Notes under the pieces: generated by a model
The model's input: only the letters and a program-made list of their open reading frames with translations
Told to the model about the DNA's origin: nothing
The model's database searches: none
Translations under genes and position numbers: made by a program
NCBI RefSeq assembly: GCF_003788585.1
Contig: NZ_AYKG01000001.1
Span: 62,001-126,000 of the forward strand
Length of the DNA stretch: 64,000 bases
Origin: Salinisphaera japonica YTM-1
Lineage (GTDB): Bacteria; Pseudomonadota; Gammaproteobacteria; Nevskiales; Salinisphaeraceae
Direction of reading: 5' to 3'
Shown: positions 3,190 through 34,899 of the stretch, one piece after another
Layout of the letters: the number at the start of each line of letters is the position of its first letter
Numbering within the stretch: the first letter of the stretch is position 1

Positions 3190-3711
3190 ATGTCCGATCA
3201 CTATATGCAGCCGGCCGTCGTCTTCTCACACGGCAAGGAAAGCGGGCCGTGGGGGTCAAAGATCACACGGCTGGCCAAAAGCGCCGAAGCGCTCGGCTAT
3301 CGCGTGGCCTCGATCGATTATCAAGGTGAGGATGATCCGGCCGCGCGTCTCGACAGGCTGTTGGCCCATAATCCACAGGGCACGCCGCTGGTGCTGGTCG
3401 GCTCGTCCATGGGCGGTTATGTGAGCGCGATGGCGGCCGCCCGGCTCAACCCGACCGCCCTGTTTCTCATGGCACCCGCACTGTATATGGACGGCTACCC
3501 CGGGGATCCGGCCGGCTGCCCGCGCGATACCGAAATCGTGCACGGCTGGGACGACGATATCGTGCCGCTGGCGTCCAGCCTTGCCTTTGCCAAACGCCGT
3601 CGTGCCCGCCTGCATCTCGTGGCCGACGGCCACCGGCTGGCCGAATCGCTGGATTTCATTGACGCACTCTTCCGTGCCCAGCTTTTGCGCGTGCGCCCGG
3701 TCGACGATTGA
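3190..3711 (+). CDS. Small alpha/beta hydrolase (YqiA-like)
   Basis: The protein has 173 residues, a minimal alpha/beta-hydrolase fold without a lid. The nucleophile is Ser73 in LVGSSMGGYVS. A probable acid lies in HGWDDDIVP (about residue 122), and the base is His148 in VADGHRL. An SHGKESGPWGSK segment near the N-terminus would be the oxyanion loop. It resembles short esterases of the YqiA type, but the substrate is not inferable. The ATG at 3190 was chosen because upstream in-frame sequence is antisense to the small membrane gene and has no homology-like character. No strong ribosome site is visible. A repeat element starts 18 nt after the stop codon. Confidence 0.75.
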   Translation: MSDHYMQPAVVFSHGKESGPWGSKITRLAKSAEALGYRVASIDYQGEDDPAARLDRLLAHNPQGTPLVLVGSSMGGYVSAMAAARLNPTALFLMAPALYMDGYPGDPAGCPRDTEIVHGWDDDIVPLASSLAFAKRRRARLHLVADGHRLAESLDFIDALFRAQLLRVRPVDD

Positions 3712-3729
3712 TGGCCGGTCGAAAAAATT

Positions 3730-4001
3730 GTCCGCGAATGAACGCGAATATGCGCAAATGAATACAGGCGGTTATCCGCAGATTGACGCCGATGTACGCA
3801 GATGAAAAGAGGAAGGTTCGCAGGCGGATAGATGACGTAACGCTGTGCCCGAAGCGTTACAGACCGATCGAGAAACAAGGCGGGTATTGGAAATCAACGC
3901 TTTGTCGCCATGCCGGACGACAGCTTTCACGCTTGTCTTTCCAATCTTCTCTTCTGTTATCCGCTTTCAATCCGCGGATTATCGTCGTCTCATTTGCCGA
4001 C
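3730..4001. repeat. GTCCGC-bounded inverted-repeat element, copy A
   Basis: The 272-bp element begins GTCCGCGAATGAACGCGAAT and ends CATTTGCCGAC, the imperfect inverse. The left arm is two runs of three roughly 10-nt units: CGCGAATGAA, CGCGAATATG, CGCAAATGAA, then a 14-nt spacer, then CGCAGATTGA, CGCCGATGTA, CGCAGATGAA. The interior shares AGGCGGATAG and GTTACAGA, in the same order and at the same offset, with the copy at 7542. The right end overlaps the last codons of pyrD. Apart from this element the intergenic stretch holds no gene I can support. Confidence 0.8.
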
Positions 4002-5033
4002 CGTCTTCTTTTGATGCGAGGCGTCACGCGCCGCGATGGCCTGGGCGGCCTCGCCCACCAGGCCTGGGCCGCGATAGATGAGCCCGGTATAGAGCTGTAC
4101 CGCGCGGGCGCCGGCGGCGATCTTGGCCGCGGCGTCGGCCCCGCTCATGATGCCGCCCACGCCGATGATCGGGATATCGTCTCCCAGGCGCTCATAAAGC
4201 GCGGCGATCACCTTGTTCGAGGCCTCGCGCACCGGGCGGCCGGATACGCCGCCGGCCTCATCGCGCCAGCGCAGCGCCAATCCGTCGCGCGCGGTCGTGG
4301 TGTTGGTCGCAATCACGCCGTCGATGGCGTGTCGGCGCAGCCGGGCCACGATGGCATCCAGGCCGGCGGCGTCCAGATCCGGAGCAATCTTGACCGCCAG
4401 CGGGACGTAGCGCTTGCGGGTCTCGCACAGCCGGTTGCGCTCGGCGACGATCGCGCCCAGCAGGCTGTCCAGTGCATCGCCGGCCTGCCAGTCACGCAGG
4501 CCGGCGGTATTGGGCGACGAGATATTGATCGTCACGTAGTGTGCCTGGTCATAGACCATCGACAACGCCGTGGTGTAATCGCTGACCGCACGTTCGGGCG
4601 GCGTGGCCTTGTTCTTGCCGATATTGATGCCGATCAGGCCGTCGTAGCGCGCTCCAGCCACGTTCTTGACCAGCGCCGTCGCCCCGGCGTTGTTGAAGCC
4701 GAAACGATTGAGCAGCGCGCGCTGCTCGGGCAGGCGAAACAGCCGCGGCCGGTCGTTGCCGGGCTGCGGCACCGGCGTGACCGTGCCGACTTCGATGAAG
4801 CCGAACCCCATCGCGGCCAGGCCATCGATATGGGCCGCGTTCTTGTCCAGGCCTGCTGCAAGACCAACCGGATTGGCCAGCTCAAGCCCCATCACGGACA
4901 CCGGGCAGGCCGCCACGCGCGTCCCGTAAAGCGCATGCGTCACCGGGCGCGCCCGATCAGCCAGCGCCAGCGTTCGCTCGTGTGCCCGCTCGGCGTCCAT
5001 GGCAAACAGCGCGGGGCGAAGCAACGAATACAT
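3990..5033 (-). CDS. pyrD: Dihydroorotate dehydrogenase, quinone-dependent (class 2)
   Basis: PyrD oxidises dihydroorotate to orotate in pyrimidine synthesis and passes electrons to membrane quinone. The N-terminus, [21 protein letters not shown], is the amphipathic quinone-tunnel helix typical of class 2. The FMN/substrate region includes [18 protein letters not shown]-like [14 protein letters not shown], the catalytic-serine loop [12 protein letters not shown] and GVGGI near the end. The length is 347 residues, against 336 in E. coli. I used the ATG at 5033; an in-frame GTG lies 9 nt upstream. The last codons, including the TGA stop, lie in the right end of repeat copy A, so the C-terminal tail may have been replaced. 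Confidence 0.95.
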
Positions 5034-6738: not shown

Positions 6739-7563
6739 TTGACTGCTCCGTCGCACAGGCCAGAGGCCAGCCCGTGGCCTGACACCACGCACCTGCTGGC
6801 TGACGTGCACCTGACCGGTGACGACACGCCGGCCGCGCGTCGGCTCGCCGGTTATCTGGCCGGCCCGGCCCGTGAGGCCGCGGCGGTTTATATCCTGGGC
6901 GATCTGTTTGATGTCTGGGTCGGCGACGATGTCAGTTTTGAGGCCCACCAAGGCACACTGGACGCCCTGGCCGCGCTGAGTGCGGCCCGCGTGCCGCTGT
7001 ATTTTCAGCGCGGCAATCGTGATTTCGCCGTCGGCACCCGGTTTTTTGCCCATACCGGCGCCCGGCCCCTGGCCGATCCGGTGGTGCACCGGATCGCCGG
7101 CCAGCCTGTCCTTCTGGCCCACGGCGATATCTTCTGTAGCGACGACCTTGCCCATCAGAAGTTCCGGCGGCGCTATACCAATGCAATCTGGCGGGCCCGC
7201 ATGCTCAGGATGCCCGCGGGGCTGCGACGGATGATCGCCCGCAAGGCCCGCGCCCGCTCGCAGGCCAGCAAGCAGCGCAAGGCCGCCGATATCATGGATG
7301 TGAATATCGACACCGTGACCCGTTGGGCACAAGACACAGAAACGTTTCGAATCGTTCACGGTCACGTGCACAAACCGGCCGATCATCGCCACGCCAACGT
7401 GCATCGACACGTACTGGCCGACTGGCGCCCGGATCAGGCCGAAATCCTGACGCTCAGCCGATCAACCATCAGGCGCCGCGCGCTGGATGACGATGGGCGC
7501 TTCTTGGACGAATCGGGTCGGGAGAATGATTCGTCTGATTCGTCCGCGAATGAACGCGAATAG
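6739..7563 (+). CDS. lpxH: UDP-2,3-diacylglucosamine diphosphatase LpxH with repeat-derived C-terminal tail
   Basis: LpxH hydrolyses UDP-2,3-diacylglucosamine to lipid X, a step of lipid A synthesis at the inner membrane. The metallophosphoesterase motifs are in order: LLADVHL, GDLFDVWVGDD, RGNRDF, AHGDIF and HGHVHKPADH. The start is TTG at 6739. No ATG or GTG lies in frame before the first motif, and a stop lies just upstream, so this non-ATG start looks forced. The protein has 274 residues, about 30 more than usual. The excess is a polar C-terminal tail. The last codons (SSANERE and the TAG stop) are read from the left end of repeat copy B, so the original stop has been lost or displaced. 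Confidence 0.9.
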   Translation: MTAPSHRPEASPWPDTTHLLADVHLTGDDTPAARRLAGYLAGPAREAAAVYILGDLFDVWVGDDVSFEAHQGTLDALAALSAARVPLYFQRGNRDFAVGTRFFAHTGARPLADPVVHRIAGQPVLLAHGDIFCSDDLAHQKFRRRYTNAIWRARMLRMPAGLRRMIARKARARSQASKQRKAADIMDVNIDTVTRWAQDTETFRIVHGHVHKPADHRHANVHRHVLADWRPDQAEILTLSRSTIRRRALDDDGRFLDESGRENDSSDSSANERE

Positions 7564-7796
7564 ACGCAAATAAAAAGAAGGCAATCCGCAGATTAACGCC
7601 GATGGACGCTGATTAAGAAGACGATTATGTCCAGGCGGATAGGCCGTCGAGTCGTTGCGCGACCGCGTTACAGAATGAACAGAGAGATCGACGATTTTTT
7701 GAAAAAAAAACGTCCGGCGAGATGATCCAGTAGGTTGCTGGCGTCTTTTGTCGCCCTCTTCTTTTATCCGTCTTTAGTCGGTGTCAATTTGCGGAC
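7542..7796. repeat. GTCCGC-bounded inverted-repeat element, copy B
   Basis: The 255-bp copy starts GTCCGCGAATGAACGCGAAT (7542) and ends TCAATTTGCGGAC (7796). The left arm again has two groups of three decamers: CGCGAATGAA, CGCGAATAGA, CGCAAATAAA, then CGCAGATTAA, CGCCGATGGA, CGCTGATTAA, with a 12-nt spacer. The interior shares AGGCGGATAG and a GTTACAGA block with copy A at matching offsets. The first 22 bases are translated as the end of lpxH. Confidence 0.8.
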
Positions 7797-8172
7797 AGGA
7801 ACTTCTTCCGGGCCGCAATGACTCGCAGGCTGCAGCGCCCGCAAGCCAATCTGCGTCATCTGCGCCACGAGGCTGTCTCTTTTGACGTCGTCCGCAAATG
7901 AACGCGAATTAGCGCAAATGAATACAGACGGTCATCCGCAGATTGTCCAGATTTCACGGATCAAAAACGGTTAGATAAACCGGCCCGTAAGCCAAGAATC
8001 TGTGCCGTCTGCGACCTATCTTCTTCTTTATTCGCGCTTTTTGGCGTTCATTTGCGGACAGGATCTTTTTCCGGGCAGCGACGACTCGCTGGCTGACGCG
8101 CCCGTAAGCAAATCTGCGTCATCTGCGAAATCTGCGGATTGTCTGCTTTTCCATTGCGGTTCATTCGCGGAC
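7797..8172. repeat. Direct duplication of repeat flank plus solo right arm
   Basis: The sequence following copy B (from 7797, beginning AGGAACTTCTTCCGGG and running through CAATCTGCGTCATCTGCG) recurs 263 nt later, after copy C (from 8060, beginning AGGATCTTTTTCCGGG). The second copy continues into a right arm ending GGTTCATTCGCGGAC at 8172. This indicates tandem duplication or stepwise insertion. The 624-nt stretch between lpxH and the DUF455 gene is filled by these repeats, and I see no gene in it. Confidence 0.7.
7890..8059. repeat. GTCCGC-bounded inverted-repeat element, copy C (short)
   Basis: The 170-bp element starts GTCCGCAAATGAACGCGAAT (7890) and ends GGCGTTCATTTGCGGAC (8059). The inverted arms are long, and CGCAAAT and CGCAGAT units are visible. 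It is shorter than copies A and B and lacks their AGGCGGATAG interior block. Confidence 0.75.
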
Positions 8173-8187
8173 GATCGTTCAAACCCG

Positions 8188-22263: not shown

Positions 22264-22289
22264 TGATGCGTCCTTTTAAGGAAAAATTC

Positions 22290-22565
22290 GTCCGCGAATG
22301 AACGCAAATTGAAAGTGAACAAGACGAAGACAATCCGCCGATGAACGCCGATTTCCGCCGATGAAGACAAGATCATCCGCAGATTCCACAGATTTAAAAG
22401 ATAGCAAAGCGGATGGCTCAAGAGAGCGGCAACGACACAGGGCACGCCGTACTTCAACGCCAATCTGCTAAGTCTGCGGATGACCGTCTTCATTCATCGG
22501 CGGCCATCGGCGTTCATCGGCGGATTGTTTTTCTTGGTTGCGCTCATTCGCGTCTATTTGCGGAC
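22290..22565. repeat. GTCCGC-bounded element, copy E, with about 105-nt inverted arms
   Basis: The element starts GTCCGCGAATGAACGC (22290) and ends GTCTATTTGCGGAC (22565). The two arms align for about 105 nt when one is reverse-complemented, both carrying ACAATCCGCCGATGAACGCC, a second CCGCCGATGAA block and ATCATCCGCAGA-type blocks. About 65 nt of unrelated sequence lies between. The RNA could fold into a long hairpin between leuD and leuB. The 77-residue open frame in the right arm is a by-product and is not called. Confidence 0.85.
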
Positions 22566-22603
22566 CGTCTCTATTGCGTTTCGCGCCTGAACAAAGCCTA
22601 GGG

Positions 22604-23248
22604 TCAAAGTTCGCGGAACAGCCACGGCTTCTGGTGCTTGCGCTCGGCCTCGAAGGCCCGGATCGCCTCGGCCTGTTTGAGCGTTTCGCCGATATGATCC
22701 AGGCCTTCGAGCATGCTGGCGCGGCGATGCGCGTCGACGGCAAAGCCATAGCTCGGCCCGTCGGCCTGGCTGATCAGTTGTTCGTTCAGGTCGATACGCA
22801 GGGTCAGGCCGGCCGGGTTGTTGGCGGCTTCAAACAGCGCGTCGACTTCGTCGTGGGCCAGCACGATCGGCAGGACACCGTTCTTGAAACAGTTGTTGTA
22901 GAAGATATCGGCAAAGCTCGGGGCGATAACGGCCCGGAAGCCGAAATTCTCGAGCGCCCAGACCGCATGCTCGCGCGAGGAGCCACAGCCGAAGTTCTCT
23001 CGCGTAAGCAGGATCGAGGCCCCGCGCCAGGGATCCTGATTCAACACGAAATCCGGGTTTTCGCGGCGCTGGCCGATATCCACGTCCAGCCCGCCGGCGT
23101 CCAGATACCGCATATCGTCGAACAGATACGGCCCGAAGCCGGTCTTGCGGATCGATTTCAGGTACTGCTTGGGAATGATGGCATCGGTATCGACGTTGGA
23201 TTGATCAAGTGGCGCGACCAGGCCTTCGTGAATCGTGAATGCTTGCAT
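22604..23248 (-). CDS. leuD: 3-isopropylmalate dehydratase small subunit
   Basis: The protein has 214 residues, the swivelling domain that completes isopropylmalate isomerase with LeuC. Motifs [36 protein letters not shown] and [17 protein letters not shown] are present. It begins 4 nt after the methyltransferase gene that separates it from leuC. Confidence 0.97.
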
Positions 23249-32247: not shown

Positions 32248-32262
32248 TAAAATAAGCCCATG
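32248..32262 (+). promoter_or_regulatory. Candidate leaderless promoter of epmB
   Basis: TAAAAT (32248-32253) lies exactly 6 nt before the epmB ATG (32260). No ribosome site is visible, and the -35 is not obvious. A second ATG two codons later is also possible. Confidence 0.4.
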
Positions 32263-33303
32263 GCGATGTCTCCACCCCAAGCGACTGGCCCGCACGTTGC
32301 GGCGCGCAGTCTATCGTATCCGGTCACGGGCTGGCAGCAGGCCATGCGCGAGGCGATCACCGACGTCGATACGCTGTTTCATACCCTGGCCCTGCCCGTG
32401 ACCTACAAGCCGGCGGCCCGGCGCGCCGCCCAGCTGTTCGGGCTTCGCGTGCCGGCGGGCTACGCCGCGCGTATTCGAACCGGTGATATCGACGATCCGC
32501 TGCTGCGTCAGGTGTTGCCGCTTGGCGCCGAAACCGAGTCGAAACCCGGCTTTGGCGCAGATGCCGTGGGTGATCTGGCAAGTGACGCTGGCGACGGCCT
32601 CTTGCACAAGTATCACGGGCGCGCATTACTGATCACCACCGGGGCCTGCGCGGTGCACTGTCGCTATTGTTTCCGGCGCCATTTCGACTACGGCGCGCAC
32701 CACGCCGGCGGCTCTCACCTGCGCGAGGCCCTGGCCCGTATCGCCGCCGATGACACCCTGGCCGAAATCATCCTGTCCGGCGGCGATCCGTTATCGCTGA
32801 CCAACGAACGACTCACGGTGATTGGCAAGGCGCTGGACGCCACGCCCCACGTCGCGCGGATCCGCATGCATACGCGCACCGCGATCGTCCTGCCCGAGCG
32901 TATCGATGATGGCCTGATCGCCTGGGTGGCGGCCCGCCGCGCCCGTGTCGTCGTCGTCATCCACGTCAATCACGCCCAGGAGCTTGCGCCCGGCGTCGTC
33001 GAGCGTTTGACCGCCCTCAAGGCCGCCGGCGCGACATTGCTCAACCAAGCCGTGCTGCTGGCCGGCGTCAACGACGACCGCGACAGCCAGGTCGCGCTCA
33101 GCGAAGCTCTGTTCGCGGCCGGCGTCATGCCTTACTACCTGCATCTGCTGGATCGCGTGGCCGGCGTGCATCATTTCGAGGTCGACGAAACCCGGGCCGC
33201 GGCACTCATGCGATCCGTGGCCGCCGTATTGCCAGGCTATCTCGTGCCCAAGCTGGCCCGTGAACTGCCGGGCGACTCGGCCAAGCGTGTTGTTGGCGTT
33301 TGA
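32260..33303 (+). CDS. epmB: EF-P beta-lysylation radical SAM lysine 2,3-aminomutase
   Basis: The protein has 347 residues. It converts L-lysine to (R)-beta-lysine for EpmA. The radical SAM CxxxCxxC motif is in TGACAVHCRYCFRRHFDY. ILSGGDPLSLTNERL and RIRMHTRTAIVLPERI match the EpmB/YjeK group. It is shorter than catabolic aminomutases, as expected for this group. It is divergent from efp over a 77-nt spacer. EpmC (YfcM) is not in the window. Confidence 0.95.
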   Translation: MAMSPPQATGPHVAARSLSYPVTGWQQAMREAITDVDTLFHTLALPVTYKPAARRAAQLFGLRVPAGYAARIRTGDIDDPLLRQVLPLGAETESKPGFGADAVGDLASDAGDGLLHKYHGRALLITTGACAVHCRYCFRRHFDYGAHHAGGSHLREALARIAADDTLAEIILSGGDPLSLTNERLTVIGKALDATPHVARIRMHTRTAIVLPERIDDGLIAWVAARRARVVVVIHVNHAQELAPGVVERLTALKAAGATLLNQAVLLAGVNDDRDSQVALSEALFAAGVMPYYLHLLDRVAGVHHFEVDETRAAALMRSVAAVLPGYLVPKLARELPGDSAKRVVGV

Positions 33304-33322
33304 GGGGTTGTTCTCTCGATCG

Positions 33323-34146
33323 GTCCGCCAATGGACGCGAGTGAGCGCGAATGTGGGGTTTGCGGCTCGCCGTGATTTGGCGTCCGGCCGCTATGTCACG
33401 GCGCGTTAGTCGTCTGCGACACAAGCGTGCGCGGGCCGCGGACCGCGCGCTCTTGTCGAGTCGTATGTCCTGGCGTGGCCGTTGCCTCGATGGACGCCAT
33501 GGGCCAGGCGGTTTTGGGGTTTGAGGCTGCGTTCTTTTGTTTGTCCGCAAATGAACGCGAATCCACGCAAATATGGGCTTCGGGGGGCGCGGGGCGATGG
33601 CGTTTGAGAGCAGACGCCCGGGGCGTTGGCCGCTTGCGAAACGAAGGCTCGCGTGGGCCGCGGACCGGTCTGCTTTCATCGAGTGGCATGTCCTGGTTCG
33701 GTCGTTGCCTTAATAAACGCAAATAAGCGTTGCGGCATCTGCGTTCATCCGGTGACGGCGTGGCGTACGTTTGAAGTCCGGCAAGTTCCAAGAACAGGCC
33801 GTGGGCTCAGCCGTGCCTGAAACGACGAACCGTTCGCCTGTAGCAAGAGCAGCGCGACGACGCCGTATTCAGGCGCGCCACGAAACTCATATTCGCGTGG
33901 ATTCGCGTTCATTTGCGGACAACAGTCTTCAAGAAAAAGACTCAGGCTCTCTGAACAACCAACAGCTATTGGCGTTCATCCAAAAACACACGCCGTGTAT
34001 CCAGCGTAGGTCAGACGTCGAACAAAGCCTGCCGGCTCGAAACCCCTGAATTGCCAAGCCAGAAGGCGGCAACAAAAAGTGCGACGACGCCAAGCCCGGG
34101 CGTACCCCGAAGCCCAAATTTGCGCTCATTCGCGTTTATTTGCGGA
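33323..34146. repeat. Outer GTCCGC-bounded composite element (copy F)
   Basis: The left end GTCCGCCAATGGACGCGAGT (33323) and right end CGCGTTTATTTGCGGAC (34146) enclose a second complete element. The left segment (33323-33500) and the inner left segment (33543-33720) align as direct copies, for example CGCGGGCCGCGGACCG, TCGAGT-type and ATGTCCTGG blocks. The two right ends align likewise. The whole 882-nt space between epmB and lolD is repeat-derived and contains no gene I can support. Confidence 0.7.
33543..33920. repeat. Inner GTCCGC-bounded element (copy G), nested in copy F
   Basis: The 378-bp element starts GTCCGCAAATGAACGCGAAT and ends GATTCGCGTTCATTTGCGGAC (20 of 21 terminal bases are complementary to the family terminus). 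It is less decayed at its ends than the outer copy, consistent with a later insertion. This subfamily is GC-richer and lacks the CGCAGAT decamers of copies A, B and E. Confidence 0.7.
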
Positions 34147-34185
34147 CAACAATCCTAAAGAACACAACTCGTGCCCTAGAAAGAA

Positions 34186-34899
34186 CTAGCGAATGACAGA
34201 ATCCGCGACGGTGGCCTTGTCGACCTGGGCCAGGTGGCCGTCGGTCAGGGTCCAGATCTCATCCATGCGCTGGGCCAGGCTGCGATCATGGGTCACCATG
34301 ATCAGGCTGGTGTTGTGCTCGGCGTTGAGCTCGAGCATCAGGTCGAACACGCTGGCCGCGGTGCGATGATCGAGATTACCCGTGGGCTCGTCGGCCAGGA
34401 TACAGGCCGGCTGGGTGACCAGGGCGCGCGCCACGGCCGCGCGTTGACGCTCGCCGCCGGAGAGTTCCGTGGGCTTGTGCTCCAGCCGATCGCCCAGCCC
34501 GACCTTGTCCAGCAGATCGCGGGCCCGAGCCAGCGCCTGTTTGTTCGAGCCGCGCCGGATGAGCAGCGGCATGGCCACGTTTTCGGCGGTGGTGAACTCG
34601 GGCAACAGATGATGGAACTGATAGATGAAGCCCATGCGCTCGTTGCGCAGGCGGCCTCGCGCGGCATCGGACAGGCGTGTCATGTCCTGGCCGGCGATCT
34701 CCACCGTGCCGCGGGTGGGCACGTCCAGCCCGCCAAGCAGATGCAACAAGGTGGATTTGCCCGAGCCGGAGGCACCGATCACGGCAATACGCGCCCCCGG
34801 GGTCACGTTCAGACTCACGTCCGAAAGCACCGTGATCGGCTCGCGTACCTCGGTGAAGGTTTTGGTCACGCCCTTGGCGGCCAGTACGTAATCACTCAT
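34186..34899 (-). CDS. lolD: Lipoprotein-releasing ABC transporter ATPase
   Basis: The protein has 237 residues. It powers release of outer-membrane lipoproteins from the inner membrane to LolA. Walker A is GASGSGKST, signature LSGGERQRAAVARAL, Walker B CILADEPTGNLD, and the H-loop MVTHD. LPEFTTAENVAMPLL is a LolD-type Q-loop region. The ATG at 34899 lies 8 nt inside the end of the permease gene, so translation is coupled. Confidence 0.95.
   Translation of the reverse strand: MSDYVLAAKGVTKTFTEVREPITVLSDVSLNVTPGARIAVIGASGSGKSTLLHLLGGLDVPTRGTVEIAGQDMTRLSDAARGRLRNERMGFIYQFHHLLPEFTTAENVAMPLLIRRGSNKQALARARDLLDKVGLGDRLEHKPTELSGGERQRAAVARALVTQPACILADEPTGNLDHRTAASVFDLMLELNAEHNTSLIMVTHDRSLAQRMDEIWTLTDGHLAQVDKATVADSVIR

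Follow-up and report, generated by a model that had tools for sequence, protein, structure and literature searches.

The intergenic stretch between epmB and lolD was occupied by a gene-less repeat element that carried a second copy of the same family in its middle. The window analyzed was a 64,000-nt stretch of Salinisphaera japonica YTM-1 DNA, and this part of it (33297-34168; Table 1) is best read as a non-autonomous element of about 445 bp, nested by insertion of its own kind into its middle. A nested repeat taken alone is an ordinary event; the interest here is that it opens onto a family pairing a small nuclease-like gene, GxxExxY (TIGR04256, PF13366 PDDEXK_3), with gene-less palindromes. 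We favor, with moderate confidence, the account that the element is a non-autonomous, nested member of a GxxExxY-linked family in which GxxExxY (or a complex) moves arm-bounded DNA; confidence stays moderate because a GxxExxY gene carried only as cargo could give the same association.

The arm order across the stretch was left, left, right, right, in agreement with the original prediction, and the arms were located at 33324, 33544, 33919 and 34146. The inner ends had been described as nearer to consensus, and this was the case: no mismatches to the arm consensus were present in either inner arm, compared with two in the outer left and one in the outer right arm. When the window was searched with a 22-mer arm allowing up to 3 mismatches, 8 arms were found against a shuffled expectation of 0.00. 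The two left segments and the two right segments proved to be direct copies, as had been claimed; 33279-33497 matched 33502-33720 with 68% identity over 222 columns, and 33851-33959 matched 34078-34186 with 72% over 109 nt. The predicted ends were right as arm positions, but about 20 nt of each copy lay outside its arms, extending the inner copy to approximately 33520-33945 and the outer copy to approximately 33297-34168; the inner-copy edges were estimated from alignment and carry an uncertainty of tens of nucleotides. The first 7 bases of the outer copy overlapped the end of epmB. When 33520-33945 was removed, the outer copy aligned end to end with the inner copy (289 of 399 identical), and the alignment score of 112 was far above the shuffle mean of 15 and maximum of 27.5 (200 shuffles). 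The region 33309-34164 as a whole was a diverged palindrome (58% self-complementary), and the inner-copy arms were 90% complementary over 50 bp, forming terminal inverted repeats of the kind used to recognize a MITE. The distance from outer to inner arm was 220 nt on the left side and 227 nt on the right.

Table 1. Positions of the nested element, its neighbors, the other arm clusters of the window and the two GxxExxY genes of genome G000 (L, left arm; R, right arm; a and b, arm types).
Feature	Position	Strand	Arms	Basis or context
Outer copy, left half	33297..33519	.	left arm 33324-33352	alignment to left half of inner copy
Inner copy, lying centrally within the outer one	33520..33945	.	left arm 33544-33572, right arm 33891-33919	
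Outer copy, right half	33946..34168	.	right arm 34118-34146	
epmB, upstream neighbor, convergent	32260..33303	+		TIGR03821, E=9.7e-124
lolD, downstream neighbor, convergent	34186..34896	-		TIGR02211, E=6.5e-95
Further cluster	3700..4033	.	a arm 3731, b arm 3775; no right arm above threshold	
Further cluster	7523..8185	.	La 7543, Lb 7585, La 7891, Ra 8058	
Further cluster, two-layered La-Lb-Rb-Ra	22287..22604	.	22291, 22334, 22524, 22564	between leuD and leuB
GxxExxY gene, copy 1	G000:C16:30795-31136		between arms C16:30725 and 31171	beside carB (confirmed) and carA (by eye)
GxxExxY gene, copy 2	G000 C10:49842-50177		b-type arms	between two metH parts (by eye)

Each arm was approximately 30 bp long and was made of three 10-bp repeats (CGCVAATNNA), written in full as GTCCGC-VAATNNACGC-VAATNNACGC-VAAT. 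The repeat length is about one turn of the DNA helix, and from their sequence the arms read like sites where protein would line up along one face of the DNA. With one mismatch allowed, the TCCGC-type arm pattern had 150 matches in the 3.26 Mb genome that holds the window (G000) and none with the reversed control; these hits can overlap, so the arms are fewer than the hits. Clusters of arms were counted in the window and in 38 of 40 fetched stretches, a sample that is arm-rich because the stretches were picked from listed arm places (about 100 of 153). Both arm kinds were present in 43 of the 53 clusters counted, and none of these 43 started with a right arm or ended with a left arm. Every cluster with two left and two right arms (11/11) had the order LLRR, and LRLR was not observed. 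Many clusters were two-layered; in these an a-type arm (CGCVAAT) came first and a b-type arm (CGCMGAT) lay inward of it. The distance between the a and b arms was mostly 39-46 nt; smaller groups at 32-36 and 49-53 nt would be equal to one 10-bp repeat fewer or more, and there were a few outliers. Arm types were mirrored in 4 of the 11 LLRR clusters; by eye, at least one of the others (L055) has an additional arm below the thresholds. Left and right spacings agreed within 10 nt in 4 of all 11 LLRR clusters (permutation p=0.057). Nested insertion, the reading put forward in the original prediction, is thus the simplest one, because the outer copy, once the inner one is taken out, matches the inner copy colinearly from one end to the other and because the L L R R order recurs in the genome without a single LRLR case.

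The gap between epmB and lolD was 882 bp here, compared with approximately 80 bp in G011 and approximately 40 bp in G010. G011 was the nearest relative compared (its EpmB was 90% identical), and its roughly 80 bp held no arm, indicating a gain of the structure in this lineage. The same comparison was made at the remaining clusters of the window. At 3700..4033 the gap was 334 bp here and 168, 80 and 25 bp in G011, G010 and G001, respectively (slightly wider query gaps for the last two); at 7523..8185 it was 661 bp here and 165 bp in G011; between leuD and leuB it was 316 bp here and 33, 173 and 361 bp in G011, G010 and G001. No arm above thresholds was detected in G011, G010 or G001 at the sites matching these three clusters, and the past mobility that had been proposed is backed by such absence at matching sites in relatives. 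The leuD-leuB gap of G001 (G001:C11:56750-57500, L135) contained another repeat, its AGGGCCTGTTGATGTTTCGTG-like ends present in both orientations. A sister-family element with AAAGG arms was present in G054, where the stretch measures about 230 bp, and absent from G053 (7 bp) and G056 (11 bp). In the flank comparisons (22287-22604, 7523-8185 and 3700-4033 against G011, G010 and G001; G054 against G053 and G056), the insertions were clear and the junctions inexact; no target-site duplication was visible at 22287-22604 against G011 or at the G054 site, the flanks being too diverged for an exact junction. A genome with the outer copy only, which had been suggested as a check on nesting, was not found; among the matches listed in 13 congeners, only arm-sized pieces (up to approximately 55 bp) matched outside the element's own genome.

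In G000, the GxxExxY gene was bracketed by arms of the same type as those of the epmB-lolD element, and the two GxxExxY copies of this genome matched its two arm families, a and b. TCCGC-type hits were present in 20 of the 85 genomes of the order. PF13366 was hit in 28 of the 85: 14 of the 20 that had TCCGC-type hits and 14 of the other 65 (Fisher p=0.0002). For the flank comparison, one GxxExxY gene was taken from each of 20 genomes of the order; inverted arms exceeded all 20 shuffles at 19 of these genes. By eye, 6 of the 20 had AAT arms, 11 had AAAGG arms (variants in G057), 2 had CAGATT arms and 1 had CAGGAT arms. Genomes with AAT arms (G000, G003, G006, G008, G010 and G061) contained 12-150 TCCGC-type hits and no AAAGG hits; the 11 genomes with AAAGG arms contained 11-133 AAAGG hits and no TCCGC-type hits, except for one in G009. 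The scattered gene-less arms were therefore of the same type as the GxxExxY arms in 6/6 AAT and 11/11 AAAGG genomes, counts that cover these two arm types. G009 belongs to the window's genus, yet had AAAGG arms; G061 had AAT arms, and its genus-mates G053, G054, G056 and G057 had AAAGG arms. Both genomes differed from their genus-mates and still matched their own GxxExxY, indicating that the type of the arms goes with the protein and not with the host lineage. G021 was an exception: 6 TCCGC-type hits were observed, though the only GxxExxY found there had other arms. G051, G061 and G077, which belong to another family, contained 78-119 TCCGC-type hits, and most of their relatives had none.

The GxxExxY protein tree grouped by insertion site: 6 carAB rows (support 84/92), 7 nuoFG rows (96/95), 3 gcvHP rows together with one other (90/86) and 2 sufBC rows (100/99). 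Several of the sites were named by eye and some were confirmed (carA/carB of G008, carB of G000). The GxxExxY elements (L111-L130 and the G000 copies) were located between adjacent genes of core operons, including carA-carB, nuoF-nuoG, gcvH-gcvP and sufB-sufC; further sites were between pyruvate dehydrogenase E1 and E2 and between metH parts (several neighbors by eye). A broken GxxExxY gene lay between arms before carB (by eye) in G072 (C27:15354-15802, L074) and looks like a degenerate version of the carAB element.

GxxExxY and its arms were also found together beyond the order. The carAB-type protein alignment was scanned against species genomes, and the best 80 of 238 relatives, mostly MAGs, were kept. 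By their titles, the relatives span many phyla, Planctomycetota, Chloroflexota, Bacteroidota, Nitrospirota and Acidobacteriota among them. At 68 of 77 testable loci from these best 80 of 238, the flanking inverted repeat was above the 20-shuffle maximum, where chance would give about 4. Most of the arms consisted of iterated 9-10-bp motifs, e.g., CACGGATGA, CACAGACTT and ACAGGATNN. One locus from a KSB1 MAG (L203) had nearly 200 bp of alignable inverted repeat on each side of GxxExxY with more than one iterated arm set; judging from this locus, arms may also be nested around the gene-bearing form in other phyla.

The GxxExxY protein matched PF13366 with E=1.6e-40. Residues E29, D68, E78, Q92 and Y96 were invariant in 55 relatives, and K80 was conserved in at least 90% of them. 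The best fold match of the predicted model (pLDDT 92) was SSO0001 (Foldseek E 6.7e-5, Z 10.3), a Cas4 protein, and lambda-type exonucleases came second by Foldseek; the next VIA rows, with Z of 7.8 and less, could reflect a common arrangement only. The family profile, the fold and the conserved acidic and lysine residues all place the protein in the PD-(D/E)XK group, and it is predicted to be a one-domain PD-(D/E)XK protein with a Cas4/lambda-exonuclease-like fold, a putative nuclease. GxxExxY had no match in PADLOC and a single weak one in PHROGs (phrog_5928, E=0.0023, unknown function), and at E 0.1 its sequence matched no solved structure. A plasmid or a phage was considered as the vehicle and rejected: the nested element was without a match in plasmids, and at E 1e-5 GxxExxY was matched in 8 of 72,556 plasmid records and in none of 50,697 phage records.

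We infer that GxxExxY is the mover. In the working proposed here, GxxExxY, or a complex containing it, would bind the arms and cut there, and the arm-bounded DNA would be moved by a process of cutting and repair; gene-less copies would be moved in trans. The dyad center of a resident copy would itself be a favored target, which would produce nested L L R R arrays. The insertion lay near the middle of the outer copy in all three long arrays compared (the window, C13 and C6). A broader proposal is put forward tentatively, at a level below that given to the account of this element: GxxExxY elements might be an undescribed and very widespread class of bacterial mobile DNA in which a lone Cas4-like nuclease recognizes inverted arms of helically phased 10-bp repeats, homes into gene junctions of core operons and moves center-preferring gene-less copies in trans. 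The arm code would differ between protein clades and travel with the protein, and a sister class with a four-helix-bundle protein would use iterations of about 7 bp.

The arms could instead be moved by another factor, an unknown or housekeeping recombinase, with GxxExxY as a passenger gene caught between them. Genomes rich in arms and without a GxxExxY hit are consistent with such a passenger; these were G051, G077, G002 and G079 (15-119 TCCGC-type hits) and G035, G043, G049, G055, G063 and G064 (15-41 AAAGG hits). A different small protein, a PF05635 four-helix bundle, was also found between inverted arms (15/20), many of them with units of about 7 bp. The passenger explanation is nevertheless rather unlikely, though a serious contender, since the arm type tracks the GxxExxY type in every AAT and AAAGG genome, G061 and G009 included, and since inverted arms bracket GxxExxY at most of the testable loci from many phyla. 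G077, which is a single contig, had 119 TCCGC-type hits and no GxxExxY hit; loss of the gene following a burst, or the action of another factor, would account for this.

Outer-to-inner arm distances in the C13 array were 251 and 250 nt, and its outer and inner copies were identical at 400 of 492 positions (score 245; maximum of 100 shuffles, 31). The C6 array contained four left arms and two a-type right arms, with distances of 256 and 255 nt when the outermost arms were paired. Units at C13 and C6 were 70-86% alike within a locus compared with 52-68% between loci, pointing to a near source of the inner copy there, by self-insertion or by local duplication. Under local duplication, slippage or recombination would have doubled each arm of one palindromic element, so that L L R R arose without transposition, and both the higher likeness within C13 and C6 and the unequal arm numbers of C6, which show that arm number can change independently, favor this course of events. 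It would need two matching events, one on each side, where one insertion explains both; the outer and inner copies are colinear, and elements as such were gained at new places. In the window, moreover, the left units were 67% alike, no more than the best units at other loci (66%). Local duplication is accordingly considered unlikely as the origin of the array. The inner copy of the window had its highest score with its host copy (112; the C13 and C9 elements reached 70-93), but by identity over aligned bases the order was reversed, with 0.72 to the host copy and 0.76-0.82 to the C13 and C9 elements, whose alignments were gappier. The near-source reading is accordingly confined to C13 and C6.

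A compact form, composed of GTCCGC and three 10-bp repeats, a short loop and the mirror image, was found in G061 and G077, which represent two other genera (20 chosen copies). The loops of these 20 copies differed from copy to copy, unlike those of a fresh MITE burst, and arms within an element were no better matched than arms between elements (permutation p 0.14 and 0.97). The two arms of a compact copy thus changed independently at free positions, which suggests DNA sites read by protein rather than a hairpin kept as such, although in G000 the match within elements was slightly above that between elements (a arms, 0/5000 permutations; b arms, p 0.049). A functional structured RNA or terminator under selection, with the repeat order as part of its fold, would suit the location between convergent genes, the strong folding of the inner copy as RNA (z=-7.0), the 5 terminator-like sites found against 1.5 expected and the slight within-element matching in G000. 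This explanation is improbable and was rejected; no Rfam 15 match above the gathering threshold was present in the window, any inverted repeat folds well, the pairing tests were mixed, with none of the matching repeated in the compact copies, and the element is absent in relatives. A RAYT (Y1) transposase acting on REP/BIME-like repeats would fit short dispersed palindromes, and a Y1 gene exists in G000, but this candidate was rejected as highly improbable because no arm lay near the sole Y1 gene (C11:36376-36696) among the about 100 of 153 arm places listed, G072 and G027 had arms and no Y1 hit, Y1 was present in 63 of the 85 genomes whatever their arm content, and the arms are three 10-bp iterations, unlike the short GTAG hairpin.

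We searched the literature for precedents; bioRxiv and most subscription journals were outside the reach of this search. Within it, the arm sequence strings were not found, nor was anything on PDDEXK_3 or Salinisphaera repeats. The text available from papers found on GxxExxY, TIGR04256 or PF13366 (PMC8934634, PMC12085832, PMC9756366) gave no function, and no paper found explains the arms flanking GxxExxY or the scattered gene-less copies. The GxxExxY gene and the scattered gene-less palindromes with common phased arms apparently form a widespread, undescribed family, and the match of the ends to those at GxxExxY may be a pointer to a class of mobile DNA that has been little studied. The link makes a concrete test possible, namely whether a one-domain nuclease moves or maintains the arms. 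If it does, DNA would have a way to move that involves no classical transposase. The arm code, changing as it does with the protein, would offer studies of DNA recognition a natural series, and successive insertions at a single point are recorded in the nested arrays.

Among known systems, the elements resemble MITEs and other non-autonomous bacterial repeats in being short and gene-less with inverted ends, in having many intergenic copies and in sharing their ends with a gene-bearing element; the enterobacterial RU elements are an example of such repeats in the accessible text of PMC2759123. They differ from MITEs in their arms, which are phased iterations, and in their partner GxxExxY, which is no known transposase; a target duplication could not be read, and neither species (among the matches listed) nor, for compact copies, loci have interiors in common. 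The element is therefore filed as MITE-like by its working rather than by proven membership, with no target duplication resolved and GxxExxY a putative mover. In relation to the TIGR04256/PF13366 family, the family's gene is bracketed by the same arms in G000, and the epmB-lolD element is gene-less. REP/BIME repeats with RAYT are likewise dispersed intergenic palindromes in multi-unit clusters, but the arm make-up differs here and no Y1 link was seen among the arm places listed. A REP is a single hairpin of 20-40 nt with a GTAG or GGAG head; on reading the compact copies, GTAG or GGAG preceded TCCGC in 0 of 20. PF05635 four-helix-bundle genes of the same order (L221-L242) had inverted arms at 15 of 20 testable loci among 22, two of which are pieces of one gene, and many of these arms were iterations of about 7 bp, e.g., GGGAATC or GTGAGGC, by eye. 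The intervening sequences of 23S rRNA, as described in the accessible part of PMC4990558, enclose a small S23/four-helix-bundle ORF by inverted repeats, sit in rRNA genes and are excised from the RNA by RNase III. The same text describes them as sporadic, thought to be horizontally acquired and called selfish, and refers to earlier suggestions that such sequences are left over from transposition or from mobile elements. As far as that text goes, GxxExxY elements share with them a small ORF within inverted repeats; unlike the intervening sequences, they lie between genes, and their linked protein is of the PD-(D/E)XK kind.
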